Both the position numbers and the translations under genes were made by a program. DNA of 64,000 bases from Pyrus communis (lineage: Eukaryota; Streptophyta; Magnoliopsida; Rosales; Rosaceae): the NCBI RefSeq assembly GCF_963583255.1, contig NC_084806.1:23726317-23790316 (forward strand), read 5' to 3'. Shown piece after piece: positions 1 through 58,510 of the stretch (position 1 is the first letter of the stretch; every line of letters begins with the position of its first letter). The notes under the pieces are model-generated. The model had not been told where the DNA came from. It ran no database searches and worked only from the letters and a program-made list of their open reading frames with translations.

Positions 1-1493
1 CTAGAGGGTCATTCTCCACACATGACACACTTGCATACAAATTGATTTCCAGTTGCTGTTCCAATAAACCATGAACCTCAACACCCTAGATTAACCGTGA
101 ACAGCACTAATTAACCCTCAAATTTTCCTTAAGTCATTGAATTGGATGGAATACGCATCAGCAACCAAATTATTCTTCAATAGTTCCCTACATGAACAAC
201 ATAATAGAGATACAATCAAAGATCATTAAGTTTTGTGAAAATCATAAGCATTGACAAGGCATTCGTAACTATGAAAAGCATGATACTCTTGCCAGGAATT
301 TACTTAACACGATCGTGACTAGCAACCTCCACTACTTATAAATATAAGTTCATAACGATTAGGTGAAACTCCCTTATATTTTAGCATCAAATTCATGCAT
401 GCAAACTAAGCGGGCCCTCTTAATCAACACACAAGAATAAGTTCTTAATCAAACAGTTAAGTAAATTGTATTCACGATTTATGAAATCACAAACTGAAAG
501 TAATCAATTCATATTGCAAATATAATCATGGTTTCAAAGTCTCCTCTAGCTAAAACAAGTTTAGCTCCTCATGTTCGCAAAACAAAGATAATTAAACTTA
601 AACATTAAAAACAAAGATAGAATACACCTAGAAACACTCTAGGTGGCTCCCCCTTTTTTCCTTGCTGCGCATAATGGGGATTTGTGTGAATTTAGGCTCG
701 TGAGGTATGGTGGATGGTGTGGTGTGAAATTGTGGTAGAGGGTGGTGGTTTATGAGTGTTGCGGCATCATGTATTTAGAGGGTGAAGGGAAGGCATGAAA
801 TTGGGTTGAAAAGGAGAAGAATTAGGACTCCAAATCACCAAAGAACAAGGACACTTTCAATTAGTGATAGGAGCATATTTATGCGACTTAAATGGCTTGT
901 TCTCGTACATTTACGTTATGTTTCTTTAGTTATTTTAGTACTTTAAGCTATTTTCGTGTGTTTGTAGGTTCAAAGGGCTAAAGGAGCAAAAAGATGCATT
1001 TTGGAGACTTTTGGAGCACTTTTGGGCTAAGGACGGATAGCTTATGCTTGAAGCCAAAGTGTTGGACGAAATTGAAGACCTAATTGGAGCCAAAGTGTTG
1101 GAACCTTGTTCTCTTTAGTTTTAGGACATTTAAACCTTTCCTAATCCCAATCATGCCATGCATCACACACATCCATTCTAACACATTGTCATTGCACATG
1201 CATTTCCTTCATTAGTTAACCCACATGCACTTATCACTTATCATCACCACATATCATATCACTTAATCACTTATCACTTATCATCACCACTTAACCACTT
1301 ATCATATCATAACCACATATCATATCACTTATCACTTATCACTTAACATATCATCCACCTACTTCACCTACAACATCCACCTACTTCACCTACAACATCC
1401 ACCTACTTCACCTACAACCTCCACTTACTTCACCAACCTCACACACTTACTTCACCTACAAACGACATAGCCATATGTTCCCTCCACTACTCC

Positions 1494-1501
1494 TATAAAT
1501 A
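1494..1501 (+). promoter_or_regulatory. LTR TATA box (ATH-1 5' LTR)
   Basis: The sequence tataaata lies in the context ctcctataaataccc, which is repeated in the 3' LTR at 8415 and in ATH-2 at 40382. Transcription would start about 30 nt downstream, giving a U3 of about 650 bp and a long R-U5 leader that contains the hairpin duplication. Confidence 0.65.
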
Positions 1502-1689
1502 CCCTTGCATTCATTCATTCATGGACATCTCATTTTCATACACAACACATTACAAACACATTCTCCCTTCCCTAGCCGTGAGCTTCCCATCCATTCCCTT
1601 ATAATCCAAACACCACTCCTTATCCATTTCCATAATCCCCCAAACCTCACCTTAGACCTTGTGCTACAACAACGAGGAAGATAAGAGGG

Positions 1690-1853
1690 CCTAAACGTTC
1701 ATACAATTCAAGTGTGAGTTGTTGGAATGTTTAGGTGTTTCTTTGATTTCAAAGTTTAAATTTAATTCTCTTTGTTTTGTACGTATGAGGAATGGAAGAG
1801 AAGAGTGCCTAAACGTTCATACAATTCAAGTTTGAGTTGTTGGAATGTTTAGG
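1690..1853 (+). repeat. Duplicated 46-nt hairpin in the LTR leader
   Basis: Two copies (1690-1735, 1808-1853; period 118 bp) begin cctaaacgttc and end gaatgtttagg, which pair as an imperfect 11-bp stem. The same pair is present in the LTRs of ATH-2 and ATH-3 and in the old minus-strand LTRs. It lies downstream of the TATA box, so it should be transcribed. Confidence 0.7.
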
Positions 1854-2780
1854 TGTTTCTTTGATTTCAAAGTTATGAGGAACTAAACCCCCTTTAGCTA
1901 GGGGGTGATTCGAAACTATGTTTATATTTGCAATATGAATTGATTAACTTTCGTTGGAATTTCATAAGTTGTGGATTCAATTTGTTTAACCGTTTGATTG
2001 ATAACTTATTTATGAATGTTTATTAAGAATGCGCGCTTAATTTTCATGCATGAATATGACACTAGAATATAAGTGAATTTCACCTAATCGTTATAAACTT
2101 ATATTCACAAGTAGTGGAGGTTGCTTATAAACAATCGCGTTAAATGAATTCTTGGCACGAGTTTCATGCTCATCATAGTAACGAATGCCTCGTCAACACT
2201 TATAGTTTTCATAATGCTTAATGATCTTTGATTGTATCTTTATTGTGCTTTTCACGTAAAGGACTTTTGGAGAATGTGGTGAATTGCGTTGCGCTAACCC
2301 ATCCAATTCATTAACTTAAGGAAAACTTGACGGTTAATTTAAGCGGACCTAATTAACCCGGGGCGTTGAGTTTCATAATTTATCGAAAGACCAACTGAGA
2401 ATCAATCTTGTATGCAAGTGTAACATGTGTGGAGAAGAACCCCTTGGCTATTCCATCATCCATATTTTCATCACATTCATATTTACATTTTGCCTTTAAT
2501 TACAATTTGTCCATTTAATTTAATCTCGTCCAAACACAATCCCCCCTTTACTTTATTGTTCAATTTAATTAGAAATCAATTTAGTTTATGTTTTAAAGTA
2601 TTTTTGAATTCTTTGAGTCTAGTATAGTGTTTTATATTGTGTTTTTACGTTTTTGAGTCAAATCCAAGTGATTAACAATCCCTCCTAATCCCCGGTCCAG
2701 AACGATCCCTACTTGCACCTATACTACAATTGATAAAAAGAGGGTTTAATTTGTGTGCGTATAAATCTCGCATCAAATTT

Positions 2781-2797
2781 TGGCGCCGTTGCCGGGG
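2781..2797 (+). other. Primer binding site, tRNA-Asp type
   Basis: The sequence tggcgccgttgccgggg lies 5 nt after the LTR and is complementary to the 3' end of plant tRNA-Asp(GTC), including its CCA. This primer is typical of the Athila lineage. The same site occurs at 41818 and 58494. Confidence 0.9.
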
Positions 2798-2887
2798 ATT
2801 AGAAAATTTGCTAATCCCTTGGATTGTTTGTTTCTGTATTGTCTTTTAGATTTAGTTTTTATTTGTGTTTTGTTTGTTAAGAACAAC

Positions 2888-3973
2888 ATGGCACTTGATA
2901 ACGCTTCTCTTTTGTCACAGCTCATGGAAAGGTCCCAAATGCAAAGAGTTGATATATCTAATCTTCAATCAAGGAATAACGTGTTTTCCAATACTTACAA
3001 TTCGGATTGGAGTGATCATTCAAACTCTATGTGGTGGGAACCTCAAAATGATCAACAAGGAGGATATTGGCAGCCACCACAACCTCATATTCAATATGCC
3101 CAACCAAACTCAAGTTCGTCAATAGATTATAATCAAAAGCTTAATGAATTAATTTGTTTGGTGCAGGGCTCACAAATTCAAGACAATGAGGCTCAACAAG
3201 AAGGATATTGGCAGCCATATGAGGAGTTCTATTCAACGTCTATGCAGCCACCACAAAGGTTGGACCACTTGGATAAGCAAATTGGGCAGATCGCGGAGTT
3301 CGTAGGACAGTTTCGAGACCAAGGCGAACTCCCTAGTTCAACCATTGCAAATCCGAAGGGAGAATTTGAAACTGCCAAGGAAATCATGTTGAGAAGTGAC
3401 AAGGAGGTTGGAACGGACCCTCAACCATCAAAATCAAATCACAAGGAAGAGGAACACACCCAACCCACGGAAAGGGTGGAAACACCTTTACCGGAGGCAC
3501 CTATTGCTCCTATGCCATCTAATACAGGTATGGTTGTTCCAAATTTCATTTTTTTTAACCCCGTTCCAACAAGTATCCCTATTCCTTGCAGATTCATGAC
3601 TTCCAAGGAAGAAGAAGGTGAAAAAGACATCTTGGAAGCCCTTTCAAAGGTGACAAGTAGGGAATGTCATGAATTCATCAAAGAGGACGTTCTTGAAACC
3701 ACAAAATCCAAAGAAGTTAAATTTGATGACATTGGACAAGTCATAACCATCACTTGCAATCTGGCCAAGTCCAATATCCCTGAAACTTTCAAAGGAGTGG
3801 TGTTTGTCATTGAGTTCTTGTCGGACAAAACAAGTAAGTTTTTTTCAAATTCCTTTACATTTTATACTAACTTGCTGTTTTTTATGAATCAGGCACCTAC
3901 ACTAGAATTCAAACCATTGCCGGTTCACTTCAAGTATCACCTTCCATTCAAGGACCAATTCCATGCCGTTTGA
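2888..3973 (+). pseudogene. Gag-linker remnant ORF of ATH-1
   Basis: This 361-codon ORF starts at an ATG that is conserved in ATH-3 (58619). It matches only the linker parts of the ATH-2 polyprotein. The stretch with SNTYNSDW and KQIGQIAEFVGQ corresponds to the segment after the ATH-2 zinc knuckle, and the end, APTLEFKPLP, corresponds to the segment just before the ATH-2 reverse transcriptase. The Gag core, CCHC knuckle, protease DLGA motif and everything after the linker are missing. The middle (VLETTKSKEVKFDDIGQV and following) has no counterpart that I could find in ATH-2. It is an internal-deletion product. Whether it makes a useful protein is unknown, but it is still open, unlike the ATH-3 copy, which is cut short. 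Confidence 0.75.
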
Positions 3974-4061
3974 TTTTATTTATGTTAATAAAAAAAAAAT
4001 AATAATAAAAAAAAAAAAAAAAAGAGAAAGAAAGATACTAAACATGGAGAAAGGTGGAGCT

Positions 4062-4733
4062 TCACAAAGGTTGTTTGCGTGAAGCCCCACTACGAGGCGC
4101 AGAAGCGGAAGGCATAGAAGCAGGAGGCATAGAAGCGGGAGGCATCGGAGCGGAAGCCATCGGAGCGGGAGGCATCGGAGCTAGAGCATTCCAGGCCTCA
4201 ATACTTGGCCAAGCGCTGGATGACCCAGGAAAAAGGTGCCTCTGGAGATAAGACGCAAGCCTTTGACGGTCACTGTGAATTCGACCCTCAGATTCTTGCA
4301 GCTCATCAAGCTTCCTCTTCATCCCCGACGAATAGTTATTTGCAAGCACATGCAAACTTCTATTCTCGTACTTAAGCTGTTGGATCTCTTGCTTAAGTCT
4401 TTCCACCTCTGCCATCAACGATTCCACTTGGCGGGACCGAGCAAGCAGGCGTTGGCCCATGTTGGACACAGAACTCGCACACTGAACACTAAGTGCGAGG
4501 GACTCTTGAACGGCCAACTCATCGGACCGTCCTGACAGCAGCCTACTATCTTTTGGAGTGAGGAGGTTTTTAGCTACTATTGTAGCTGTTGTGGCGTCCT
4601 GCATCACAGAATCTTCACCTGAAAGAGGACCGTTAGAAGATAAAAAAGAAGGGCGCCATACATTACCTTGACGGGGCGCAACCGGATCGCTGCTGAGACT
4701 CAAATCTAAGCTAAGGTTCGATGAGTTTGCCAT
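4062..4733 (-). CDS. Antisense ORF of ATH-1: coiled-coil protein of unknown function
   Basis: A 223-codon ORF lies on the strand opposite to the element's own transcript. The start is the ATG of MANSSNLSLDLSL at 4733. About 45 bases of the same frame are open upstream but contain no other ATG. Residues about 1-85 are Ser/Leu-rich with no family I know. Residues about 95-150 contain regular hydrophobic heptads (VESLMAEVERLKQEIQQL) and should form a coiled coil. The C-terminal 40 residues are Pro/Ala/Met/Ser repeats encoded by a 15-bp minisatellite. There is no signal peptide or membrane segment. Homologues lie at 48001-48693 and 59651-60352. Codon comparison with the ATH-2 copy (27 synonymous against 11 replacement codons) points to protein-level selection. 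The function is not known; an RNA-binding, packaging, silencing-related or regulatory role would all be guesses. Confidence 0.8.
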   Translation of the reverse strand: MANSSNLSLDLSLSSDPVAPRQGNVWRPSFLSSNGPLSGEDSVMQDATTATIVAKNLLTPKDSRLLSGRSDELAVQESLALSVQCASSVSNMGQRLLARSRQVESLMAEVERLKQEIQQLKYENRSLHVLANNYSSGMKRKLDELQESEGRIHSDRQRLASYLQRHLFPGSSSAWPSIEAWNALAPMPPAPMASAPMPPASMPPASMPSASAPRSGASRKQPL

Positions 4734-4899
4734 TTTTTTTTTCAAAAGTGTTCAAAGAGAAGGGGTGGATGGAGTTAAAATTTCACAAAGGGCCGGAGTC
4801 GAGTTTCAGGAATGGGAAATCTTCAGAGTGTGTGTGTTGGGGTGATTGATAGCTCTATAAAAAGCCAAGACGACGCGTCCACCGATTCAAAGAGCCGGA

Positions 4900-5190
4900 T
4901 TTTCCGGCGTAATTTAGGCGACGCTCCCTCAGTTTTTCAAGAAAACGCGTTCAACTTTGTCAAAAGATTTCTGACAAAGCTGAAAACACGTGGAGGCCAT
5001 CATCGCATTTACACATTTTTAGCCGACAAGCGCAAAGTTCGGCGACGCTTTCTCTGCTTTTCAGAAGACGCGTGCAGCTTTGTCAAAAGGAGCCGTATCT
5101 GCACTACCACGTGTCGTTCAGAAAGCGAAGGGGCATCGTTCAGAAATCGAAGGGGCGCCTGCTCAGAAATCGAAGAGGCGTATTCAAAGA
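4900..5190 (-). promoter_or_regulatory. Repeat-rich region upstream of the antisense ORF
   Basis: A roughly 50-bp motif containing an acgcgt core followed by tttgtcaaaag occurs twice, near 4917-4966 and 5041-5090. It is followed by several copies of a short unit, ttcagaaatcgaaggggc (about 5114-5190). Two cacgtg G-boxes lie near 4988 and 5108. The arrangement is kept in ATH-2 (about 48840-49140) and ATH-3 (about 60510-60810). It lies 5' of the antisense gene, as leader or promoter-proximal DNA. Confidence 0.45.
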
Positions 5191-5282
5191 TCGAAGAGGG
5201 GCCACTATTTCAAAGAGCCGGATTTGCGGGATCAAAACGTTTGTCGATAAGGGTAAAAAGTACCACCACTTGATATTATCTC

Positions 5283-5288
5283 TATATA
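5283..5288 (-). promoter_or_regulatory. Candidate TATA box for the antisense gene (ATH-1)
   Basis: On the minus strand the sequence reads cgacatatatagagata. The block is conserved in all three elements (5283, 49209, 60861). The only good plus-strand TATA nearby (ctataaaaag, 4854) is lost in ATH-2. Transcription from here would give a leader of about 520 nt. Confidence 0.35.
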
Positions 5289-5299
5289 TGTCGACCTTC

Positions 5300-7785
5300 G
5301 TCTTTTATGGCAGGGCAAACCTGAAGAAAATGCCCAACTCTCCCTCACCTCTGAGGGCGCACTCCCAGCAAAGCCTTTCAAAATACTCAATTCTTTCTTC
5401 TTCCCCAAAGATGATACCAGATGCCTGGAGTACATATGACCTAGGAGGAAACGGCGGATTGAAGCATGTGCTGATTCATTCACCGCTTCTTCAAAGCAAA
5501 GGTATCTCATATCATCAAGGTCAAAAGCAAAAGTATCTCATATCATGCTCTTTCCCTGTCTTTTTCTTTGTCCTTGTTCTTACTTGCATGGCAAAGTAAA
5601 AGAAGCAATCAGCCGGCACTTGGAGTCAGTCTACCGATCTGGAGCCAACTGCCTGGAATCTATTCCTGATTGCTTACCTAGCGTTGCTCTCGAGTAGTCA
5701 TCTTCAACGGTTGTTACACTTCCAGAGAAGGGACCACTCCTGCAAAGATTGAACAAAGAAACAGATAACAGGAGGAAGCTCAGACCTTCGGGGGAAACCA
5801 AAAGAACCATCCTGCTGCCCAGTTCAAGAAGTAGCACAAAGGAAAATCAACGATGGGCAGAAACCAGTTCAAGAGTAAGCCTGTGGAATCACAAAGATCA
5901 AAGCCTCAATGCAATCACCAAGGAGAAGAGGGAATTTACACTCCATAACCAGATTTGCGTCCCTAAACTCTTCTCTTTGTTAATTACATTATGCCATGTT
6001 TAATATGTTTTAGTTGCTTTTTATGTGTTTACTTATGTTTTGTGTGAATCTATGCTTAAAACATTGAGGACAATGTTTGATTTAAGTGTGGGGGGGTAAC
6101 TAAAGTGTTTTGATGCAAATTCGTAGGGTTTTATCCACCATAACTTCTAATGTTGTTCCTTGCTGTTTTAAGGTGTTTTTAAGTTGTTTTAGAGTGTTTT
6201 AGTGTGTTTTGTTTTATAATTCGAAAATCCCATAAAAATTTGAAAAATTGTTTTGAAAAACCCAAAAAGAGTTGTTTTAAAAGTCATTTTTGTGTGTTTG
6301 TGTCTTAGGGTACCTTCCAACACAATGATAAGGATTTGGTTTATAATTGCATGACGGTTAGAAAGAGTTATAAACATAGAGAAAAGTTTGATTTACTCTT
6401 GGTATATGCTTGGTTATGGTTATAATGTATGACTTCACATGCAATCATAAAAGAAAAATTCGTTTTTGTAACATGCTTGAAGGAAGAAACTCAAACAAAC
6501 GCTACAACCCTGAGAGACTTGAGCCTATAACGTTCTTTGGAGAGTATAATCTGTGATTTCTTGTTTTCTAAAGTCGTTGCATGATCTCATTATTCTTTGC
6601 TTGGTTACTACTTAGAAGGCGTTTCATCATATAGTTCCAAATGCTAGAACTCATGCCCATTTCATTCAAAGCATGTTATTGATTTGCATAACACATATTC
6701 AAGAAGAAGTTGTGTAGTGACCACCACCATAGCCAAATAGCCTTACTTCCCATACTTCGTATATGTTGTAAGTTTTAACCCCGTTGAGCCTCGTTTTGCC
6801 TTTATTCCTTGTTTACCCACATCACCCCTTACCTAGCTTAGAGTAGGACTTTCCTATACCCTTGTTCTTAAAGTTTAGTGAGCATGACTTAAATGAATTC
6901 CTTTTGAGTTACATTATGCAAGAAAATGAGTGTGGGGGAGTAAAAGTTTGTTCTTACGTTTATATGTATGTTTTGAGATTCAAAAGAAAAAGAAGAAAAG
7001 AAAAAAAAAAAAAAAAAGGAGTGAAAATAAGTAAGAATGAACTCACGAGCGTTGATGGTTGAAGAAAGGGTCCAAAAAGTTGAATATGGCCCTAAGTTTT
7101 GTGTGATTTTCCCTTGGGTGTTCAAAGTTGACTTCTGCGTTCTTAAGGGAATTCTAAGTGCCTAATTCAATACTTTGCTCACTATTGCTTTAAGAATGTT
7201 TGTTTATCCTTCACCTTTCATTGTTAGCCAATACCCTAGCCCCGTTACTACCCTTTGACTTCTATATTGAGTGTTATGTATTTCAATTGTGGAGTTTGAA
7301 CTTGGTATGAGCTTATGGTGTCACTGGTTCTCGCGTCTAAGTAGTAGCATTCCATTCATGAGATCATATCTAAACATGCTTATTAACTCCAGAAAATGCT
7401 TTCCTTATTATAACATATGTGAGTGTTTGTCTACATGTTTACATCAATCTTCTCACATATACCTAGTGTAGGGTGTGTAGTCAGAAAATCTGTGTGAAAA
7501 ACGAGAGTACATCTAGTAAGAAACTGAGGGAATTCTCTAAAGGCATGTTACTACATTTGAAATGTGTTTTAATTGCTTAATTGTGAACTAGTATGTGGTG
7601 ACTATGATTAAGAATGTACTTAAGTGTAAAGATGGCTCAAATCTGTGAGAATAATGATTTTTAACTTGTCATGTGCATTGGAAGTCCCTGATACGATTGT
7701 TGGAAGGTGTAGGTTGTGTTTTGTTCTTTTTGTTTTGTTTTTCTGTTTTGCTCGAGGACTAGCAAAAGCTAAGTGTGGGGGTATT
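5300..7785 (+). other. Non-coding 3' part of ATH-1
   Basis: No credible gene on either strand. Bases 5300-5950 are shared with ATH-2 and ATH-3 and belong to the antisense-gene module. From about 6060 to 7785 there is AT-rich DNA shared with ATH-3. It contains three G-runs of the form aagtgtggggg or gagtgtggggg (about 6085, 6929 and 7771), of which the last is the polypurine tract. This is the position where Athila elements can carry an env-like gene, but none is present. Confidence 0.6.
7771..7785 (+). other. Polypurine tract of ATH-1
   Basis: The sequence aagtgtgggggtatt directly abuts the 3' LTR, the expected position of the plus-strand primer. ATH-3 has the equivalent at 63394-63408. Confidence 0.8.
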
Positions 7786-9696
7786 TGATAGGAGCATATT
7801 TATGCGACTTAAATGGCTTGTTCTCGTACATTTACGTTATGTTTCTTTAGTTATTTTAGTACTTTAAGCTATTTTCGTGTGTTTGTAGGTTCAAAGGGCT
7901 AAAGGAGCAAAAAGATGCATTTTGGAGACTTTTGGAGCACTTTTGGGCTAAGGACGGATAGCTTATGCTTGAAGCCAAAGTGTTGGACGAAATTGAAGAC
8001 CTAATTGGAGCCAAAGTGTTGGAACCTTGTTCTCTTTAGTTTTAGGACATTTAAACCTTTCCTAATCCCAATCATGCCATGCATCACACACATCCATTCT
8101 AACACATTGTCATTGCACATGCATTTCCTTCATTAGTTAACCCACATGCACTTATCACTTATCATCACCACATATCATATCACTTAATCACTTATCACTT
8201 ATCATCACCACTTAACCACTTATCATATCATAACCACATATCATATCACTTATCACTTATCACTTAACATATCATCCACCTACTTCACCTACAACATCCA
8301 CCTACTTCACCTACAACATCCACCTACTTCACCTACAACCTCCACTTACTTCACCAACCTCACACACTTACTTCACCTACAAACGACATAGCCATATGTT
8401 CCCTCCACTACTCCTATAAATACCCTTGCATTCATTCATTCATGGACATCTCATTTTCATACACAACACATTACAAACACATTCTCCCTTCCCTAGCCGT
8501 GAGCTTCCCATCCATTCCCTTATAATCCAAACACCACTCCTTATCCATTTCCATAATCCCCCAAACCTCACCTTAGACCTTGTGCTACAACAACGAGGAA
8601 GATAAGAGGGCCTAAACGTTCATACAATTCAAGTGTGAGTTGTTGGAATGTTTAGGTGTTTCTTTGATTTCAAAGTTTAAATTTAATTCTCTTTGTTTTG
8701 TACGTATGAGGAATGGAAGAGAAGAGTGCCTAAACGTTCATACAATTCAAGTTTGAGTTGTTGGAATGTTTAGGTGTTTCTTTGATTTCAAAGTTATGAG
8801 GAACTAAACCCCCTTTAGCTAGGGGGTGATTCGAAACTATGTTTATATTTGCAATATGAATTGATTAACTTTCGTTGGAATTTCATAAGTTGTGGATTCA
8901 ATTTGTTTAACCGTTTGATTGATAACTTATTTATGAATGTTTATTAAGAATGCGCGCTTAATTTTCATGCATGAATATGACACTAGAATATAAGTGAATT
9001 TCACCTAATCGTTATAAACTTATATTCACAAGTAGTGGAGGTTGCTTATAAACAATCGCGTTAAATGAATTCTTGGCACGAGTTTCATGCTCATCATAGT
9101 AACGAATGCCTCGTCAACACTTATAGTTTTCATAATGCTTAATGATCTTTGATTGTATCTTTATTGTGCTTTTCACGTAAAGGACTTTTGGAGAATGTGG
9201 TGAATTGCGTTGCGCTAACCCATCCAATTCATTAACTTAAGGAAAACTTGACGGTTAATTTAAGCGGACCTAATTAACCCGGGGCGTTGAGTTTCATAAT
9301 TTATCGAAAGACCAACTGAGAATCAATCTTGTATGCAAGTGTAACATGTGTGGAGAAGAACCCCTTGGCTATTCCATCATCCATATTTTCATCACATTCA
9401 TATTTACATTTTGCCTTTAATTACAATTTGTCCATTTAATTTAATCTCGTCCAAACACAATCCCCCCTTTACTTTATTGTTCAATTTAATTAGAAATCAA
9501 TTTAGTTTATGTTTTAAAGTATTTTTGAATTCTTTGAGTCTAGTATAGTGTTTTATATTGTGTTTTTACGTTTTTGAGTCAAATCCAAGTGATTAACAAT
9601 CCCTCCTAATCCCCGGTCCAGAACGATCCCTACTTGCACCTATACTACAATTGATAAAAAGAGGGTTTAATTTGTGTGCGTATAAATCTCGCATCA
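7786..9696 (+). repeat. ATH-1 3' LTR
   Basis: 1911 bp, the same length as the 5' LTR and apparently identical to it. TATA box at 8415. It ends gcatca, followed by the TSD attag. Confidence 0.95.
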
Positions 9697-39451: not shown

Positions 39452-39889
39452 TGATAGGAGCATATTCATGCGACTTAAATGGCTTGTTCTCGTGCATTTA
39501 CGTTATGTTTCTCTCGTTATTTTAGTCCTTTATGCTTCTTTTGTGTGTTTTCAGGTTCTAAGGGCCTAGGGAGCAAGTAAGTGCACTTTGAGGCCATTTG
39601 GAGCATTTTTGGGCATGGATTGGATAGCTTATCCATGGAGCCAAGAGGATGGACGAATTTGAAGGCCTTGTATGCACTTGAAGACACAAAACAATGGCCC
39701 TAACCCAATCACATAACACATTATGCCATACAAACCAACCTATTTTAGGCCCATTCTATGTACTTAAACCCTAGCCCTTTAAACTAGTTCATTTATCACT
39801 TATCAAACCATTCACTTATCACTCACCACATATCATTCACTTATCACTTAACATATCATTCATTTATTTCACTTCCATACTCCTCTTAA

Positions 39890-40260
39890 TTCCACATGCA
39901 TTCTCACACATGCACATCATTCACTCACATTTCCACCATTCATTCTTTATTCCTTTCCAAACATCTCACATGCATTTCCACCTTCCTACTTCATCATTTC
40001 ACCACATTCTCCCTCTTTAACTCACATGCATTCATCATAATTCACAACACAAAACAACTTCATTGCCGTGGGTTCCCATTTCCTTTCCAAACATCTCACA
40101 TGCATTTCTTCATTATTTCCTAACCCTACATGCATTATTTATTGCATCTTCACATGCATTCACACACACTTTACACATTCAAACCGTGAGCTCCCATTCC
40201 TATATGCCATTTTCAGATTTCCACCCACTAACCTAGTCATCAACACATGCACTTCCACCT
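39890..40260. promoter_or_regulatory. Cluster of cacatgca (RY-type) motifs in the ATH-2 U3
   Basis: About nine copies of catgca, mostly as cacatgcatt, lie within 370 bp upstream of the TATA box. catgca is the core RY element recognised by plant B3-domain seed regulators (LEC2/FUS3/ABI3). Whether they act here is inference. Confidence 0.4.
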
Positions 40261-40381
40261 TTCATCCACAATGATTCATGATTCATTCACTTTGCATCCT
40301 TTAAATCAATCACATACTTTTCCATCATTAATTAGCCACTTGCATCTTAAACAAACAGCCATATGTTCCCTCCACTACTCC

Positions 40382-40389
40382 TATAAATA
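40382..40389 (+). promoter_or_regulatory. LTR TATA box (ATH-2)
   Basis: tataaata lies in the same cctataaataccc context as in ATH-1. Confidence 0.65.
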
Positions 40390-41817
40390 CCCTTGCATTC
40401 ATCCATTCAATTCATATCTCATATTTCCATTCACAACACTTCACACAACACAAATACACATCCATTGCCGCAATTCCCCTTCCATTTTCTGTGCAGTTTT
40501 TCTCCTTCATTGCAGCCACTATCCAACCACTTCCCATCCCTCCAAAACACTTCACATAATCCCCAAAGCTCACCTTAGACCTTGTGCTACAACAACGAGG
40601 AAGAAAAGAGTGCTTAAACGTTCATACAATTCAAGTTTGAGTTGTTGGAATGTTTAGGTGTTTCTTTGATTTCAAAGTTTAAATTTAATTCTCTTTGTTT
40701 TGTACGTATGAGAAGGGAAGAGAAGAGTGCCTAAACGTTCATACAATTCACGTTTGAGTTGTTGGAATGTTTAGGTGTTTCTTTGATTTCAAAGTTATGA
40801 GGAACTAAACCCCCTTTAGCTAGGGGGTGATTCGAAACTATGTTTATATTTGCATTTTGAATTGATTACGTTTGGTTGGAATTTCATAAGTTGTGGATTC
40901 AATTCGTTTAACTGTTTGATTGATAACTTATTTATGTATGTTCATTGAGTTTGCAAGCTTAATTTTCATGCATAAATATGACGCTAGAATATAAGTGAAT
41001 TTCACCTAATCGTTATGAACTTATATTCACAAGTAGTAGAGGTTACTTATAAACAATCGCGTTAAACGAATTCTTGGCATAAGTTTCATGCGTATTCCAT
41101 AGTAACGAATGCCTCGTCGATGTTTATGATTTCCGTTGAACTTAATGATCTTTGTTGAATGTCTCTATCATGCGTATTCCATAGTTAGGGACTTTGATTA
41201 AGAATAATTGGGTTGTAATGCGTATTCCATTCAATCCAACAAATTTAGGGAAATCTGAAAGTTAATCTAAGCGGATCTAATTAACTTGGAGCATTGAGTT
41301 TCACAACTTATCGAAAGACCAACTGAGAATCAATTTTGTTTGCAAGTGTAACATGTGTGGAGAAGAACCCCTTGGCTATTCCATCATCCATATTTTTTTT
41401 ATCACATTCATATTTACATTTTGCCTTTAATTATATTCTGTCTTTTTAATTTAATATCGTCCAACCACAATTCCCCCCCCCCTATTTTGTTAAGTCTTAA
41501 TCATTCGTATTTGTTTTATTTTTGTATCTTTAAGCTTTTGGAGTCATAAACAATTGCAAATTCGTCTAAATCAAGTTCTAGCTTCTATTTGAGTCAATTT
41601 GATTGTTTTAGACAATTTGAGTTTTTCAAAGCCATTCTGAGTCATAGTAGTCTTGTTAAGAGTATTTTAATTTAGTTTTTATGTTTTTAAGTCAATTTAG
41701 AAGGTTTTAGCAAGCCCTCCTAATCCCCGGTCTAGAACGATCCCTCACTTATCCATTCTACTACAATTGTCAAACGAGGGTTTAATTTGAGTGTCAAGTA
41801 AATCTCGCATCAAATTT

Positions 41818-41834
41818 TGGCGCCGTTGCCGGGG
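41818..41834 (+). other. Primer binding site, tRNA-Asp type (ATH-2)
   Basis: tggcgccgttgccgggg, 5 nt after the left LTR. Confidence 0.9.
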
Positions 41835-41946
41835 ATTAGCAACTTTGCTAATCCTTTGTCTTTATTTTTATATTTTTTTTTGTTTTTCGTGCATTCTTAT
41901 TTTAGATTCTTAGTTTGTTTGTTTCCTTGTTTTTTAGGTACTGTGT

Positions 41947-44900
41947 ATGACTCGTCGCTCTCGGCCTATTATAGAGAACATCTCCGACTTTGACGGTGAT
42001 TTTGAGCGCACTTTGAGGAGAACGAGGAGTCAACAAGAGCCACCACAACCTGGGCTTGAAGAAGACGAAGTAGGTGTAGAAGAAAAGCCCACAGATCAGA
42101 TTTTTGAAGAAGAACAAGCCATGGCAGCAGATAATAGAACCATCAAGGAGCTTTCGGCCTCGGGTTTGGATAATGCATTGCCTCTTTGTATCCAATACCC
42201 CACGGCTGCAGAGGGGAAGACTGAGGAATTTGAACTCAAATCCAGTTTGTTACACCATATTCCGAAGTTCCATGGCTTGTCTATGGAAGACCCCAACAAA
42301 CACTTGAAGGAGTTCGAGGTGGTTTGTTCGAGCATGACCCCCGTCAATGTGGATGGGAGTATATTGAAGATGAAGGCCTTTCCATTTTCACTTATGGACA
42401 AGGCCAAAGATTGGCTCTACGAACTAGCCCCGGGAACTGTGACTTCGTGGGAGAGTATGAAGCGTGCTTTCTTGGAGAAATTCTTCCCTACTTCGAGAGT
42501 GATTCTCCTACGGAAGAAAATTAGTGGTATTCAACAGAATCATGGTGAGACATTCCCGGCTTATTATGAGCGCTTCAAGGGCCTTGTAGCTTCATGTCCT
42601 CAACATCAAATGAAGGAGGAACTTCTCCTTCAATATTTCTATGAGGGCCTCCTTCCTATCGAACGTCAAATGGTTGATGCGTCAGCGGGAGGAGCATTGG
42701 TGGACAAAACACCAAGGGATGCTAAGATTCTCATAGCCAACCGAGCGCTCAACGCTCAACAATATGAAGGAGTGGGCCAAAGGGAAGCCCCACGGCAACA
42801 AAGTGTAAATGAGGTGAGTGCTATTTCTGAAATTCAATCACAACTTGCTAATCTTACTTCTCTTGTTTCTCAGGTTGTGATTGGTCCAAAAGCACAAGAA
42901 CACCAAGTTTGTGGCGTGTGCTCAATTCAAGGGCATCCATCCGACAAGTGCCCTCAACTAATCGAGAATGGTGGGTGGGAATCTGCCAATGCAATTGGTT
43001 TCCAAGGACAAAATCAAAACAACCCATACTCGAACACTTACAATGTCGGATGGAGGGACCATCCAAACTTCAAATGGAGGGAGCCACAACAAACTGCCCA
43101 ACAAGGAGGATTTAGGCCAAACCCCCCTGGTTTTTATACCAAGCCGTATGCACCCCAACAATCCCAACAACCTTCGGCATCATCTCATTCAGGTACGTCT
43201 TTGGAAAGTAATCAAGCTATGCAATTACTAACCTCTATTTCGCAGGGGTTGCAAAATCAAAACAACCGGATAGAAAATAACGAGAAGGAGATGATGGATA
43301 TGAAGAAACAAATAGGGCAGATTTCTGAGTTCCTTGGACAGATTAGAGAGCAAGGAAAGCTTCCTAGCTCAACCACAGTCAATCCAAAGGGAGGATTCGA
43401 ATCCGCCAAGGCCATCACCCTAAGGGGTGGAAAAGAAGTTGGGACCGAGCCAAACAATCCCAAATCTGCCCAGAAAGTAGATGAAGAGACGACACAACCT
43501 GAGGCAGATCACCCTAACTCGGCCAAATCAGGTAATTTAAGTTCAAATTCATGTACTTCACGTCCTAATCTGCCCAATGTACCTTTTCCTCGCAGGTTCA
43601 TGCAAGAAAAAAAGGAAGAAAGTGAGAAGGACATTCTTGAAACGTTCCGGAAGGTGCAAGTGAACATACCACTTCTCGATGCAATCAAACAGGTTCCAAA
43701 GTATGCTAAATTCCTCAAAGACCTATGCAATACAAAGAGAAGAAGGGCAAACAAAGAGGTAGTGAAGGTAAGCGAGAATGTGTCCGCTGTTTTGCAACGT
43801 AAACTGCCTACCAAGTGCAAAGACCCCGGTAGTTTCACGATTCCTTGTGTGATTGGACATAATCGTTTTGAACATGCCATGCTTGATTTAGGTGCATCCA
43901 TAAATGTCATGCCTTATTCTATTTATGCATCTATGAATTTGGGTGAATTAAAACAAGATGGTGTAATCATACAATTGGCCGATCGTTCTAACGCGTATCC
44001 AAAAGGAGTTTTGGAAGATGTGATTGTGCAGGTGAACCATTTAATTTTTCCAGCTGATTTCTACGTCCTAGACATGGAGGATTCAGCCCATTCTACATCT
44101 TTGCCGATTCTCCTTGGTAGGCCATTCATGAAGACGGCCCGAACGAAGATTGATGTATACAAAGGCACCTTGACAATGGAATTCGATGGGGAAGTGATTG
44201 ATTTTAATATTTCTGAAACTATGAGATATCCCGTTGATGACCATTCTTGTTTTTCCATTGATGTTATCGATTCTTTGGCGCAGGTATACCTTGAAGAATT
44301 GAACGAGGACGCCCTGGAAACAACCATCACTAAGGCCATAGAGCGCAAAAATGAAGGATTTGGGCCAATGCAAGGCCACGGCAAGGAGGAGGAATTCTTT
44401 GCAATGGGTTCTAGAGAAGAAATAATTGAGGTTGTGGCAGCCCTTGAGTCATTGCCACAACAATATGGTAAGGTTCCACTCTCACTTTCAAATTCAGTTT
44501 CCACTAAGATGCTACCTTCTGTTGTTCAGGCACCATCGCTTGAACTTAAGCCGTTGCCGGACCATTTGAAGTATGTGTTTTTGGGAAAAGGCGAAACATT
44601 GCCCGTCATCATTTCATCAAGTCTCACGGCAATGGAGGAGGAGAAGCTTGTGAGGGTGCTGCGAGAACACAAAACGGCCATAGGGTGGACTTTGGCCGAC
44701 ATTAAAGGAATAAGCCCTACCACATGCATGCACCGTATACTTCTTGAGGAGGGGACTAAGCCATCCCGAGAGGCTCAACGCCGTCTCAACCCTCCGATGA
44801 TGGAAGTGGTGAAGAAGGAAATAATCAAGCTTTTGGATTGCGGAGTGATCTACCCTATCTCCGATAGCCGTTGGGTCTCTCCAGTTCAAGTCGTTCCCAA

Positions 44901-47448
44901 GAAGTCCGGAGTAACTGTTATCAAGAATGATGAGAATGAGCTCGTGCCTACACGCATTCAGACTGGATGGCGCGTATGTATCGATTACCGGAAGCTAAAT
45001 GCCATGACTAGGAAAGATCACTTTCCTTTGCCATTCATCGACCAGATGCTCGAAAGGTTAGCCGGTCATGCTTTTTACTGTTTTCTTGATGGATACTCTG
45101 GATATAACCAAATTGTGATAGCCCCGGATGATCAAGAGAAGACCACATTCACATGTCCCTTTGGAACATTTGCTTATCGTCGCATGCCATTTGGCTTATG
45201 CAACGCACCGGCCACTTTCCAAAGGTGTATGGTAAGTATATTTTCCGATTTTGTTGAAAAGATCATTGAGGTTTTCATGGATGATTTCAGTGTATTTGGG
45301 AGTTCATTTGATAATTGCTTGGATAATCTGACCTTAATTTTGAAACGATGTGTTGAAACTAACCTTGTCTTGAATTGGGAGAAATGTCACTTTATGGTGA
45401 AACAAGGAATAGTTTTAGGACATATTGTTTCAGAAAAAGGAATTGCAGTAGATAAATCGAAAATAGACCTTGTACGTCACTTACCCTCTCCTACTTCGGT
45501 TAGAGAGGTACGTTCGTTTCTTGGCCATGTAGGGTTCTATAGGCGTTTTATCAAGGACTTCTCCAAGATGTCCAACCCTCTTTGCCGATTGCTTCAAAAA
45601 GATGTGCCATTCAAGTTTGATGAAAAGTGTAATTCGGCATTTAACCAACTCAAGGAGAAGCTAGTCTCGGCCCCCATTATTGTACCTCCAGATTGGAGCC
45701 TTCCGTTCGAGCTCATGTGCGATGCATCCGACTATGCATTAGGAGCTGTTCTAGGACAAAGAAGAGACAAGCGGCCGCATGTCATATACTATGCCTCTCG
45801 GACTCTCAATGATGCCCAATTGAACTACTCCACGACGGAAAAAGAACTTCTAGCTGTGGTTTTTGCTTTAGATAAATTCCGTTCATATTTAATTGGTACT
45901 AAAGTAATCGTTTATTCTGATCATGCAGCTTTGAGGTACTTGCTCACGAAAAAGGAAGCAAAGCCGAGGCTTATCCGTTGGATTCTTCTTCTTCAAGAAT
46001 TTGATATTGAAATCCGGGATAAGAAAGGAAGCGAGAATGTAGTGGCTGACCATTTAAGCCGAATGATCCACGAGGAGCATGAACATGCCGTACCTATCCC
46101 TGAAACTTTTCCCGATGAGCAGCTGCTATCCATTGAGGTAAGTGAACCATGGTATGCAGATTTAGTGAATTACTTGGTGGCTAAACAAATTCCAAATGAA
46201 CTAAACAAGCACCAACGTGATAAGCTTAAAAATGATGCACGTTTCTATGTTTGGGACGACCCTTATTTGTGGAAGTATTGCTCAGATCAAATTGTACGTA
46301 GATGTGTGCATGATTCTGAATTTCACTCAATTCTAAGCTTTTGTCACACATATGCATGTGGTGGTCATTTTGGCACACAACGCACTGCCCTCAAGGTTCT
46401 AGAGTGTGGTTTTTATTGGCCGACTATATTTAGGGATGCTAGAACCTTTTGTATGTCTTGTGATCGTTGCCAACGAATGGGTAACATAGGTACCAAGGAC
46501 CAAATGCCGCAAACCCCTGTCTTTAATGTTGAAATTTTTGATGTTTGGGGCATTGATTTCATGGGCCCTTTCCCTCCATCTTATGGTTTCACTTATATCT
46601 TGCTAGCCGTTGATTATGTTTCTAAATGGGTGGAAGCAAAAGCCACCCGTACTAACGATTCTAAGGTGGTTGCAGATTTCGTGAAAACTAACATTTTTGC
46701 TAGGTTTGGAATGCCAAGAGTAATCATAAGTGATGGAGGGTCTCACTTTTGCAATCGGACCATTGAGGCGTTGCTAAGAAAGTACCATGTCAACCATAAG
46801 GTCTCCACACCTTACCATCCTCAAACAAATGGCCAAGCCGAGGTGTCTAACCGAGAAATCAAACAAATTTTGGAGAAGACCGTTGGACCAACAAGGAGGG
46901 ATTGGAGCTTACGTTTAGATGATGCACTGTGGGCATATCGTACGGCATACAAAACACCCATTGGGATGTCACCTTTTCGGCTCGTCTATGGTAAGCCATG
47001 TCATTTGCCCGTAGAGTTAGAGCACAAGGCACATTGGGCCGTGAAGACTTTCAACATGGACATAGATGCAGCGGGAGTTCATAGGAAGCTCCAATTGAAT
47101 GAACTTGAGGAGATTCGGAATGAAGCCTATGAGAATGCCCGGATGTACAAAGCCAAGACCAAAGCATTCCATGATAAAATGATTCGAACCAAGACCTTCA
47201 CAGTTGGGCAGAAAGTGTTACTTTTTAACTCTCGCCTACGTTTGTTTCCTGGTAAGTTGCGTTCTAAATGGATTGGCCCGTTTGTTGTTACTAATGTTTT
47301 CCCTCATGGTGCAGTGCAAATCAAAAGTTCAAGGATGCAGCAAGAATTCAAAGTGAATGGGCATCGATTGAAGCCCTATTACGAGATGTTTGAGGAGCAT
47401 GTCGTGGAGGAGGTACCCCTCCATGCCGTGGAACCTAGTCAAGCTTAA
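41947..47448 (+). CDS. ATH-2 Gag-Pol polyprotein, intact, Athila type
   Basis: 1833 codons in one frame without interruption. Residues about 100-280 are the Gag core ([25 protein letters not shown]). A CCHC knuckle, [14 protein letters not shown], lies near residue 320, and a Gln/Asn-rich linker follows to about 540. The protease motif LDLGAS is near 645. Reverse transcriptase has [10 protein letters not shown] (about 1010) and the active-site FMDDFSVFG (about 1110). RNase H ([10 protein letters not shown]) is near 1256. Integrase has an HHCC zinc region (about 1458-1510) and catalytic GIDFMGP (about 1534), ISDGGSHF (about 1594) and NGQAE (about 1628), with DD35E spacing and every acidic residue present. 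The last 200 residues include IGPFVV. All enzyme motifs look functional, so this ORF could supply proteins for ATH-1 and ATH-3. The start is the first ATG after the primer site and leader. Confidence 0.95.
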
Positions 47449-47997
47449 ACGGAGGTACCGTCCGGCTGCAAGACGTAAAAGAAAGCGCTTCGTGGGAGGC
47501 AACCCATGCATCCGAATAGAGAAGAACTTGGAAAACCCTTTAAGAGACTTATTTTTATTCCTTTCTTTTTCTTTACTGCCTTTACTTTGCTTTCTTTCTC
47601 GTATTTGTTTATTTGCTTGCTCTGTTGTTTTTTTTTTTTGCTTAAAACATTGAGGACAAAGTTTGATTTAAGTGTGGGGGGGTAAACAATTTGTATTTGC
47701 ATGAATTTCGTGAGATTTATTCACCTATCACTTAGAATGTTGTTTCTTGCTGTTTTAAGCGTTTTTAGAGTGTTTTAGTGTGTTTTATAGTGTCTTGGTA
47801 TAAAACTCCGAAAATTTGATAAAAATTTAAAAAAAAAAAAAAAAAAAAATTCTTTTCTTTGTTGCTGTTTTGTTTCTGCCTTGTTAGGTTGTTTAGTTGT
47901 TATTGTTTGTTTGTTTATTAATTGTGTGAGTCTATGATTGTAACATTGAGAAAATGTTTGATTTATTGATAGGCACTGTTAAACAAAGAAAGATGGT
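47449..47997 (+). other. Region between gag-pol and the antisense gene of ATH-2
   Basis: No gene. It contains gcgcttcgtgggaggcaacc (about 47487), a compact ggg/ccc hairpin motif. It also has a block with ttgaggacaaagtttgattt and aagtgtggggggg (47650-47685), homologous to ATH-1 6055-6100. An A-run (about 47830-47850) and a second, degenerate copy of the same block (47925-47970) follow, just before the antisense module. Confidence 0.6.
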
Positions 47998-48000
47998 GCT

Positions 48001-48693
48001 TCATAAAGGTTGTTTGCTTGAGGCCCCACTACGTGGCTTTACTCTTGGAGCGGAAGGCGTAGGAGCGGAAGGCGTAGGAACAGAAGGCATCGGAGCAGAA
48101 GGCGTAGGAACAGAAGGCATCGGAGCGGGAGGCATCGAAGATAGAGCATTCCAGGCCTCAATACTTGGCCAAGCGCTGGATGAGCCAGGAAAAAGGTGCC
48201 TCTGGAGGAAAGACGAAAACCTTTGACGGTCACTGTGAATCCGACCTTCAGACTCTTGCAGCTCATCAAGCTTCCTCTTCATGCCCGTCGAATAGTTGTT
48301 TGCAAGCACATGCAAACTTCTATTCTCATACTTCAGCTGCTGGATCTCCTGCTTGAGACTTTCCACCTCTGCCATCAATGATTCCACCTGACGGGAGCGG
48401 GCAAGCAGGCGTTGGCCCATGTTGGACACAGAACTCGCACACTGAACACTAAGTGCGAGGGACTCTTGAACGGCCAACTCATCGGACCGTCCTGACAGCA
48501 GCCTACTATCTTTCGGAGTGAGGAGGTTCCTAGCTACTATTGTAGCTGTTGTGGCGTCCTGCATCACGGAGTCTTCACCTGTGAGAGGACCGTTAGAAGA
48601 AAAGAAAGAAGGGCGCCATACGTTACCTTGACGCGGCGCGGCCGCATCACTGCTAAGGCTCAATTCCAAGCTAAGGTTCGATGAGTTTGCCAT
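48001..48693 (-). CDS. Antisense ORF of ATH-2: coiled-coil protein of unknown function
   Basis: The 230-codon homologue of the antisense ORFs in ATH-1 and ATH-3, starting MANSSNLSLELSL at 48693. The coiled-coil region (RQVESLMAEVESLKQEIQQL) is identical to the ATH-3 copy. Against ATH-1 the aligned first 178 codons differ at 38 codons, 11 of them amino-acid changes, mostly near the N terminus and just after the coil. The C-terminal tail has a different number of 15-bp repeats (MPSVPTPSAP units). It lies downstream of pol, on the opposite strand, in a position that an env-like gene would take in other Athila elements. Function unknown. Confidence 0.82.
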   Translation of the reverse strand: MANSSNLSLELSLSSDAAAPRQGNVWRPSFFSSNGPLTGEDSVMQDATTATIVARNLLTPKDSRLLSGRSDELAVQESLALSVQCASSVSNMGQRLLARSRQVESLMAEVESLKQEIQQLKYENRSLHVLANNYSTGMKRKLDELQESEGRIHSDRQRFSSFLQRHLFPGSSSAWPSIEAWNALSSMPPAPMPSVPTPSAPMPSVPTPSAPTPSAPRVKPRSGASSKQPL

Positions 48694-49208
48694 TTTTTCA
48701 AAAGTGTTCAAAGAGAAGGGATGGAGTTAAATTTCAAAGGGCCGGAGTCGATTTTCAAGAATGGGAAATCTTCAGAGTGTGTTTGTGGCGGTGATCGATA
48801 CCTCAATAAGAAGCCAAGGCGACGCGTCCACCGATTCAAAAAGCCGGAATTTCCGGCGTAATTTAGGCGACGCTTTCTCAGCTTTTCAAAAGACGTGTTC
48901 AACTTTGTCAAAAGAGTTCTTCTTTTCAGACAACACGTGGAGGCCATCATCGCAACTACACATCTTTAGCCGACAAGCGCAAAGTTCGGCGACGCTTTCT
49001 CGGCTTTTCAGAAGACGCGTGCAGCTTTGTCAAAAGGAGCCGCATCTGCACTACCACGTGTCGTTCAGAAAGCGAAGGGGCGCCTGCTCAGAAATCGAAG
49101 AGGCGTGTTCAGAGATCGAAGAGGCGCCATTATTTCAAAAAGCCGGATTTGCGGGATCAAAACGTTTGTCGACAAAGGTAAAAAAATACCACCACTTGAT
49201 ATTATCTC

Positions 49209-49214
49209 TATATA
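49209..49214 (-). promoter_or_regulatory. Candidate TATA box for the antisense gene (ATH-2)
   Basis: The same minus-strand cgacatatatagagata block as in ATH-1 and ATH-3, about 515 bp upstream of the antisense ATG. Confidence 0.35.
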
Positions 49215-49965
49215 TGTCGACCTTCGTCTTTTATGGCAGGGCAAACTTGAAGAAAATGCCCAACTCTCCCTCACCTCTGAGGGCGCACTCCCAGCAAAGC
49301 CTTTTGAAATACTCAATTCTTTCTTTTTCCCCAAAGATGATACCAGATGCCTGGAGTACATATGACCCAGGAGGAAACGGCGGATTGAAACATGTGCTGA
49401 TTCATTCACCGCTTCTTCAAAAGCAAAGGTATCTCATATCATCAAGGTCAAAAGCAAAGGTATCTCATATCATGCTCTTTCCCTGTCTTTTTCTTTGTCC
49501 TTGTTCTTACTCGCATGGCAAAGTAAACGAAGCAATCAGCCGGCACTTGGAGTCAGTCTTCCGATCTGGAGCCAACTGCCTGGAATCTATTCCTGATTGC
49601 TTACCTAGCGTTGCTCTCGAGTAGTCATCTTCAACGGTTGATACACTTCCGGAGAAGGGACCACTTCTGCAAAGGGGAGCGAGTAAGGCAAGTGAAAATG
49701 ATACATTGAAGCATGTGGAGACAAACATAGGCTGAGTTATCCTCCAACCCTTTTCAATACGAATTGGAAAGATTGAACAAAGAAACAGACCAAAGGGGTA
49801 AGCTCAGACCTTCGGGGGAGACCAAAAGAACCATCCTGCTGCCCAGTTCAAGAAGTAGCACAAAGGAAAATCAACGATGGGCAGAAACCAGTTCAAGAGT
49901 AAGCCTGTGGAATCACAAAGATCAAAGCCTCAATGCAATTACCAAGGAGAAGATGGAATTTGAGT

Positions 49966-50006
49966 GTTTAATTTGAGTGTCAAGATTTTAGAGAGGTACC
50001 AAAATT
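49966..50006. other. Aberrant junction between the ATH-2 interior and the inverted LTR
   Basis: 19 bases (49966-49984) repeat the near-terminal sequence of the left LTR in plus orientation (gtttaatttgagtgtcaag). About 14 bases of unexplained sequence follow, then ccaaaatt, which is the complement of the leader just after the LTR and reaches the first bases of the primer site, then the inverted LTR. This is a scar of abnormal cDNA joining. Confidence 0.8.
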
Positions 50007-56303: not shown

Positions 56304-56639
56304 CTATCAACAATAATTCACCAAATACTTACTATTTAGATGACAAAACAAATAAAATTTTGAAGGCTAACAATTAAACAACAACAAACAACGGCCTAAG
56401 TTGGATTTGATTGGGGGAATTGATAGGAGCATATTTAGGCGACTTACTTAGTTTGTTTTCGTGCATTTATATTGTTAATTCATAGTTGTTTTAGTAGTTT
56501 AAGCCATTTTCGTGTGTTTTTAGGTTCATATGGCTAAGGAAGCAAACAGATGCATTTTGGAGCATTTTGGAGCAAATTAGAGATTGAAATGGATATCATA
56601 TGCTTGGAGCCAAGAGGATGGACGAAATTGAAGGATTCC

Positions 56640-57025
56640 TAATCCATTGCAGCCACATGCACATTCAATCATTCACACCAAAACCTTGCACATGCTTTCC
56701 CATTTCATTATTCATTCACTTTGCAGCCACCATTCACTCTTTAATCCACATGCATTCATCATCATTCACCACACCTTGCAGCCACATGCATTCCCCTTTT
56801 ATATTTCCAACCCACATGCACTTCCCCCTTTATCATTTCAGCACATGCACTTCCCACTTCATCATTTCAGCCACCAAACATTCACATGCATTTCATTCAT
56901 CATTTCCACCCCCACATGTCCCTTTAATCATTCAAACATGCACTCCCTTTAATCACATGCATAAATCAGCCACATGCATCTCCCATCACCATTTCAGAAT
57001 TCTAGCATTTGCACATGCAACCTAG
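56640..57025. promoter_or_regulatory. Cluster of cacatgca (RY-type) motifs in the ATH-3 U3
   Basis: About eleven catgca-type motifs (cacatgcatt, cacatgcact and so on) lie in 385 bp just upstream of the TATA box; the 3' LTR repeats the cluster at 63625-63997. The core matches the RY element of seed promoters. Confidence 0.4.
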
Positions 57026-57059
57026 CTGTCATGTTCCCTCTCCCATCCATCCATCTCCC

Positions 57060-57067
57060 TATAAAAA
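57060..57067 (+). promoter_or_regulatory. LTR TATA box (ATH-3)
   Basis: tataaaaa in ctccctataaaaacc, at the position equivalent to the ATH-1 and ATH-2 TATA boxes. Confidence 0.6.
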
Positions 57068-58493: not shown

Positions 58494-58510
58494 TGGCGCC
58501 GTTGCCGGGG
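58494..58510 (+). other. Primer binding site, tRNA-Asp type (ATH-3)
   Basis: tggcgccgttgccgggg, 5 nt after the LTR. Confidence 0.9.

Follow-up and report, generated by a model that had tools for sequence, protein, structure and literature searches.

A selected antisense reading frame in Athila-like retrotransposons of pear and its putative product

Whether the strand opposite to the coding strand of a plant retrotransposon can carry a selected gene of its own, and what its product could do, is the question raised by a stretch of 64,000 nucleotides from the pear (Pyrus communis) genome, hereafter the window. It holds three related LTR retrotransposons, labelled E1, E2, and E3 (Table 1), and the opposite-strand open reading frames (ORFs) that a preliminary description had placed in them, of 223, 230, and 233 codons, are all intact and have exactly the boundaries proposed there. 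Antisense additional ORFs between pol and the 3' LTR (aORF-3R or eORF-3'R) have been described in maize Grande (gene23), rice RIRE2, Silene Retand, and bean PvRetro13, and their function is described as unknown (PMC7264820, PMC11963269). The window ORFs resemble this group in their antisense orientation, in their position between pol and the 3' LTR, and in their conservation in copies (three of three intact; omega 0.21). At 223-233 codons, they fall below the threshold of a 2019 survey that separated eORF-3'R but required at least 250 codons (PMC6317226).

Three related elements and a shared module

The E2 polyprotein has gag, RT, RNase H, and integrase matches that exceed Pfam cut-offs and a weak protease match below the cut-off. 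The gag-pol ORF of this element ends at 47448 and is followed by the antisense ORF and then by the second LTR copy, which is inverted (about 49999-52367); the element has a 5-bp duplication, CGGCG. None of the three E1 sense ORFs of at least 150 aa contains gag-pol domains (Pfam), and the E3 sense ORFs of at least that length are a partial gag and an ORF at 60683-61177 for which Pfam gave no match. The partial gag of E1 and E3 is 39-40 per cent identical to residues about 337-571 of the E2 polyprotein. In tblastn searches, E1 and E3 matched the E2 polyprotein at residues about 337-876 only, with zero matches to residues 1-300 and 901-1833; the capsid, RT, RNase H, and integrase are therefore gone from E1 and E3.

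Table 1. Features of the three elements (window positions; ORF lengths in amino acids).
Feature	Position	Strand	Description
Element E1	865..9696	+	LTRs 865-2775 and 7786-9696, 100% identical
E1 target duplication			5 bp, ATTAG; E1 PBS at 2781
Antisense ORF, E1 copy	4062..4733	-	223 aa; EAR-like LSLDLSL at residues 7-13, coiled coil, Pro/Ala/Met tail
TATA-like TTTATAG, E1	4855..4861	-	128 bases before antisense ATG; pattern match only
Element E2	39452..52367	+	LTR 39452-41812; gag-pol, then antisense ORF
E2 gag-pol ORF	41947..47448	+	Intact, 1833 aa
Module common to E1 and E2	E2 47987..49674 = E1 4048-5747		About 90% identity
Antisense ORF, E2 copy	48001..48693	-	230 aa; between pol and inverted LTR copy
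E2 sense ORF	48761..49624	+	287 aa; not a conserved gene
Element E3	56421..64000	+	3' LTR from 63409, continues past window end; PBS at 58494
E3 partial gag ORF	58619..59473	+	284 aa; E1 counterpart from ATG 2888
Antisense ORF, E3 copy	59651..60352	-	233 aa; 5' half E1-like, 3' half E2-like
TATA-like TTTATAG, E3	60467-60473	-	121 bases before antisense ATG; pattern match only
Distal upstream block	E1 5259..5710, E2 49184-49637, E3 60833-61288	-	97-98% identical among the three

The PBS, TGGCGCCGTTGCCGGGGA, is identical in all three elements, and we take it to be a match to tRNA-Asp. Overlapping RT_RNaseH models cover residues 1225-1352 of the E2 polyprotein, and no second, additional RNase H is listed for it at E <= 1 (Pfam). 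The Athila-type label used in the preliminary description fits these two features. An OTA polyprotein without an additional RNase H is what tells Athila from Tat/Retand (PMC6317226), and E2, which differs from the Tat/Retand lineage in this respect, is assigned to Athila because the additional domain is missing. The three elements fit Athila-like Ty3/gypsy retrotransposons, a probable lineage that is given by the RNase H criterion and the PBS. A scan of seven sense ORFs did not detect Athila ORF1 (PF03078), the presence of which is not a membership requirement; this ORF occurs in 16 per cent of Athila elements (PMC6317226). Athila is named as a reference family in a paper on pear retrotransposons (PMC4715297).

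The structure of E2 is unusual in that the CGGCG duplication flanks it, yet its LTR copies, which are 99.66 per cent identical, are opposed in orientation; the inverted copy also holds the spacer and the first PBS bases. E2 looks like a product of aberrant reverse transcription or auto-integration that inserted anyway. A neighbouring element with 778-bp LTRs and a 1408-aa ORF (33770-37996) occupies 31488-39443 and 52368-53812, and its region 32289-33733 recurs immediately after E2 with 99.4 per cent identity, as if E2 had inserted into a tandem LTR-internal-LTR-internal arrangement. A scan of viral contigs gave 11 pattern matches, of which zero were confirmed.

From a point about 14 bases beyond the antisense stop codon, E1 and E2 share the module of Table 1, and the only other internal match of at least 200 bases between these elements is one at the LTR/PBS border. 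In the 3' flank past the stop codon, E2 diverges from E1 and E3 by 0.55-0.57, versus 0.073 between E1 and E3. Because the shared module abuts unrelated E2 flank just past the stop codon, it looks like a unit moving between elements. Athila elements that are only distantly related are reported to recombine in Arabidopsis (PMC2410132), and the E3 antisense ORF is itself a mosaic, sharing variants with E1 in its 5' half and with E2 in its 3' half.

Purifying selection on the antisense frame

The shared ATG of the antisense ORF is preceded by in-frame stops in all three copies, and an ATG-initiated ORF of at least 220 codons occurred in 0 of 60 Markov-simulated 64-kb sequences (the longest had 182 codons). 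Length by itself does not settle the matter, however, because the unrelated 1408-aa ORF at 33770-37996 also has an ORF of 212 aa on the minus strand opposite to it. The preliminary description had relied on a hand count in the first 178 aligned codons of the E1 and E2 copies, which we reproduced: 38 codons and 41 bases differ, with 27 synonymous and 11 replacement changes. The other two pairs have synonymous-to-replacement counts of 18:11 and 15:8.

The claim drawn from that count, that the antisense frame itself is under purifying selection, is upheld by codon models, random placement of changes, and comparison of the six frames, in a sample of three DNA copies from the window, one of them recombinant. 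The NG86 estimates of omega for the three pairs, which are not independent because E3 is the recombinant, are 0.112, 0.182, and 0.212 over codons 1-190 and 0.193, 0.225, and 0.283 over the whole ORF. A maximum likelihood codon model of the three copies gives omega of 0.207 for codons 1-190 (2dlnL = 30.5 versus omega = 1) and of 0.294 for the whole ORF (2dlnL = 30.3); since three sequences have a single unrooted tree, the model is not misled on topology. Among the ORF cores of the three elements, dS is 0.14-0.27. Pairwise changes at codon positions 1/2/3 number 7/3/33, 8/4/23, and 7/3/20, that is, 33 of 43, 23 of 35, and 20 of 30 changes fall on third positions. Given this concentration, a codon-blind constraint on RNA or DNA is an unlikely source of the synonymous excess.

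Could mutation bias, such as the decay of methylated cytosines, or recombination between elements mimic purifying selection? E3 is a clear mosaic, and transitions are about twice as frequent as transversions among the changes, as such an artefact would have it. When the same changes were placed at random, however, the observed replacement fraction was reached in 0, 0, and 1 of 2000 runs, and a null that preserves the base and the CG/CHG/CHH class of each change attained it in 0, 0, 0, 3, 0, and 6 of 2000 runs in six directed comparisons. With one unrooted tree for the three sequences, recombination alters branch lengths and not the ratio of replacement to synonymous changes. We therefore regard an artefact as extremely improbable.

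The antisense frame has 0 stops in the 190-codon core and is the sole open frame of the six. In the core, stops interrupt the other five at 7-22 codon positions per pair, and the sense frames at 7-12, which rules out sense-strand coding there. A constraint on the sense strand, which the preliminary description had named as a possible source of the synonymous excess, thus does not account for it. A low ratio (0.21-0.36) is also seen in one sense frame, but with 7-8 stops; its wobble positions presumably coincide with those of the antisense ORF. In E1, the sequence corresponding to the 287-aa sense ORF of E2 is split over three frames, and in E3 over two. Both gaps inside the antisense ORF are multiples of three (30 and 9); of the 22 gap entries in the 5' flank, three are. 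The sense partial gag ORF of E1 and E3, which serves as an internal control, has an omega of 0.62 and is much less constrained. Purifying selection acts on the antisense reading frame and is also evident between the two elements that are without RT, RNase H, and integrase.

Upstream of the antisense ORF, the distal block diverges by 0.020-0.029 among the three elements, versus 0.053-0.075 for the ORF core. The block holds 5' exons of pear and apple gene models, with peptides such as IEYFERLCWECALRGE and TVEDDYSRATLGKQ, and it may be an exon, a promoter, or a recently homogenised tract; its higher conservation is not explained by selection on the protein. This pattern would suit an antisense RNA that is itself the functional part, acting as a promoter, as double-stranded RNA, or as a long non-coding regulator of the sense transcript, with the ORF as a by-product, and antisense transcripts have been discussed as a source of siRNA for such elements (PMC7264820). 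Codon periodicity, in-frame gaps, and an omega of 0.2 nevertheless require translation, and protein identity is at least 55 per cent across 24 aligned members of the family. The RNA-only explanation is thus largely refuted by omega, and we judge it highly unlikely.

The encoded protein and its relatives

The coiled coil and the Pro/Ala/Met tail that had been read from the translation agree with leucine heptads, a predicted helix, and a Pro-rich disordered C terminus. Leucines at every seventh residue (106, 113, 120, and 127) together with N124 mark the coiled coil; the heptad pattern occurs in 109 of 123 and 218 of 272 family proteins, and a K-[RMK]-K-[LI] patch in 117 of the 123. AlphaFold2 predicts a single helix at residues 72-167, with pLDDT of 94-98 per block in residues 101-150, a mean of 66.9, and ends of low confidence. 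The protein has an N-terminal LxLxL/DLN motif, a long coiled coil, and a disordered Pro-rich tail. Within the C-terminal tail (4062-4169, 48001-48129, and 59651-59788), a 15-base in-frame tandem repeat of the Pro-Met-Pro-Ser-Ala type differs in copy number among the three elements.

The N-terminal motif is LSLDLSL or LSLELSL, a strict LxLxL, in all three window copies, and its four leucines were kept despite two synonymous leucine-codon changes (TTA/TTG and CTC/CTT); it also shows a synonymous change in one serine codon and one D/E replacement. Strict LxLxL is present in 43 of 116 N termini (of 123 proteins, including the three from the window) versus a mean of 0.94 in shuffles. A relaxed pattern, [LF][DNE]L[SN], which was picked after the sequences had been seen, occurs in 143 of 183 anchored proteins (of 272) and is absent from the other 40. 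All 70 aligned rows, out of 123 proteins, have the central leucine, L11. These counts are not independent because the rows are related to each other. Fifteen pear proteins were checked, of which five have strict LxLxL, one has DLN alone, and nine have neither; in eight of the nine the N terminus is replaced by predicted upstream exons, one starts later, and all nine retain the coiled-coil core. If the predicted upstream exons are real, the motif is optional. A more distant apple subfamily has FDLNL, FDLNF, or LNLNV, none of which is strict LxLxL; FDLNF and LNLNV also fall short of a strict EAR motif.

The preliminary description had found no known family, which holds for Pfam: no match of the three window proteins reaches a cut-off, and the matches are coiled-coil families, the best being FBF1 (21.7 bits in E1 and 18.6 bits in E3, versus a cut-off of 45). 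The relatives P0069, P0027, and P0061 likewise match only coiled-coil families below the cut-off. The statement does not hold for the protein database, where the search that had been suggested returned 1334 relatives at E <= 1e-3; among the matches listed (120 of 1334), all those with a named organism are from Malus or Pyrus. A search tuned to longer proteins gave 49 relatives, all of them listed, and one tuned to short proteins gave 207 at E <= 0.01, of which 120 were listed; in both, the listed rows with a named organism were from Malus or Pyrus. A fold search against the PDB produced 12 matches, all weak and zero at E <= 0.001, and kinship by fold was dropped. Membership in bZIP was also rejected, as PF07716 reaches only E of 0.55-0.57 in two of the three window proteins, below the cut-off, and the basic region, as read from the sequence, is out of register with the zipper.

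A tree of 70 rows puts the window copies into a 19-row clade with 11 pear and five other rows (support 99/93), where they belong to a subgroup of five rows (98/96). The second main side of the tree consists of 29 rows that form a clade of their own (100/99) and include Malus sequences. For P0158 and P0162, two pear models outside this tree, the best BLAST match among six references is P0069, a member of the 29-row clade, which suggests that pear and apple each have both protein types.

A host gene fragment that was captured recently, so that the selection signal would be a remnant of its past as a host gene, would be in keeping with the multi-exon gene seen in some pear and apple annotations and with the one LOC name in Malus sylvestris. 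The copies, however, diverged inside elements with an omega of about 0.2, and one of these elements has 100 per cent identical LTRs; a single 90 per cent identity cluster comprises 2492 sequences, as expected of a repeat; and the named rows among the matches listed include no homologue from another genus. We consider a host-gene origin of the signal very unlikely.

Several annotations of relatives deserve comment. Twelve pear proteins (P0007-P0010, P0012, P0015, P0081, P0150, P0153, P0154, P0159, and P0160) are named 'S ribonuclease' or 'S2-RNase', apparently a misannotation propagated onto transposon proteins. In the pear models P0153, P0154, P0157, and P0159, the antisense ORF is joined to a shared extra segment of about 200 residues (PRPNL[SN]G...), which has no tblastn match at E <= 0.1 within the window. 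The 719-aa model P0158, which contains the antisense-ORF protein, has a sub-threshold PF04195 match at residues 368-429 (19.7 bits versus 26.2), which falls outside its antisense-ORF part; the match may connect the protein with the Retand antisense proteins or result from a fused gene model. Six long gene models were scanned with Pfam, and we take the formin FH2 domain found above the cut-off in P0161 (residues 1-168) to be a fused neighbouring gene.

Comparison with known systems sets the protein apart. Retand TRP28 (PF04195) antisense proteins are also kept in clusters lacking gag or other domains (PMC11963269), and the window proteins resemble them in being antisense, in lying in the region from pol to the 3' LTR, and in occurring in elements with missing domains. 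TRP28 membership was rejected, as PF04195 is absent from the three window proteins (E <= 1); they differ in this from the proteins of Grande, RIRE2, and Retand and are unrelated to them as far as Pfam shows. In a scan of 24 family members, with cut-offs given for the first member only, PF04195 was not among the matches listed (25 of 53 families). The window gene is an accessory ORF downstream of pol, as are the env-like and ORF1 (PF03078) accessory ORFs of Athila, but it is antisense, whereas those are described as sense-strand (PMC7264820). In an Athila element of sunflower, the minus strand holds an ORF of just 70 aa, whose product has a transmembrane helix (PMC11728184). Among the literature matches listed, which lie mainly outside subscription papers and the 2011 survey of Steinbauerova et al., there is no antisense gene of this size or kind in Athila elements.

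Candidate functions

Since LxLxL and DLN, the latter also when proline is absent, have been described as repression motifs of plants (PMC6479872), the specific mechanism that we favour is that of a dimeric regulator in the nucleus which recruits co-repressors. The gene, located between pol and the 3' LTR region, would be transcribed from an antisense promoter of its own within the module; the protein would enter the nucleus, dimerise through its coiled coil, and recruit TOPLESS-type co-repressors through its EAR-like motif; and the recruitment would modulate how strongly the element itself, or host genes for silencing or defence, are transcribed. To this reading as a whole, in which the selected gene is observed and its transcription and function are predicted, we give a probability of about 0.3.

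An own promoter has been shown for Grande gene23, which also has a nuclear product (PMC7264820); the window copies have pattern matches only, namely TTTATAG in E1 and E3 (Table 1), with the proximal TATA-like site unmatched in E2, and AATAAA at 82, 34, and 23 bases after the antisense stop in E1, E2, and E3. The likeness to plant EAR repressors (LxLxL or DLNxxP) consists of LxLxL in the window copies and a DLN core in many relatives (PMC6479872). Unlike those repressors, the antisense protein has no DNA-binding domain that we could find, so that as a repressor it would need a partner; the motif is missing in nine of 15 pear proteins; and repression is here only predicted. Counting against the co-repressor reading are these motif-less pear proteins, the 40 of 183 proteins without the relaxed motif, the ease with which short motifs such as LxLxL are found, the unmatched TATA-like site of E2, and the motif of the apple subfamily, which is not strict.

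A real antisense accessory protein could also act by another route, as a silencing suppressor, as a chaperone of RNA or particles, or in nuclear import of cDNA, with LxLxL incidental or otherwise used. The entire selection evidence applies to it equally. It also agrees with the coiled coil and the K-[RMK]-K-[LI] patch of 117 of 123 proteins, with the coiled-coil core kept in the nine pear proteins without the motif, and with the fact that no domain indicates a function, and extra ORFs of the Vandal family protect against RdDM (cited in PMC11728184). What it leaves unexplained is the conservation of the N-terminal leucine motif in an otherwise variable, low-confidence region. Taken together, such other functions are more likely than the co-repressor mechanism, at somewhat better than even odds.

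A stricter version of the co-repressor reading holds that Athila-like elements of the apple tribe encode an antisense, TOPLESS-recruiting EAR repressor adaptor, a plant-retrotransposon counterpart of HBZ; its elements retain the ORF though RT and integrase are lost, and their partial gag is far less constrained. HBZ of HTLV-1 is a retroviral antisense regulator with nuclear localisation (PMC11963269). The two are alike in being antisense-encoded and small, with a short motif and a zipper-like coiled coil, an analogy of layout only. HBZ is a bZIP protein; the antisense protein differs from it in having its basic region out of register and no bZIP Pfam match above the cut-off, and their sequences are unrelated as far as seen. 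We regard this stricter version as doubtful, more so than co-repressor recruitment in general.

That antisense accessory genes are already known in plant retrotransposons makes the present gene less surprising; new here are a protein that differs from the known antisense accessory proteins and an Athila-like host element. For an antisense accessory ORF, selection is here demonstrated at the level of codons, and the partial gag of the same elements provides an internal control. An EAR motif that would interact with TOPLESS offers a testable interaction, which makes the role of such genes experimentally accessible. Surveys with a 250-codon threshold would miss genes of this kind. Retention of the gene in elements without RT and integrase suggests either a benefit in cis to the element that carries it or an obligatory supply of the protein by such elements.
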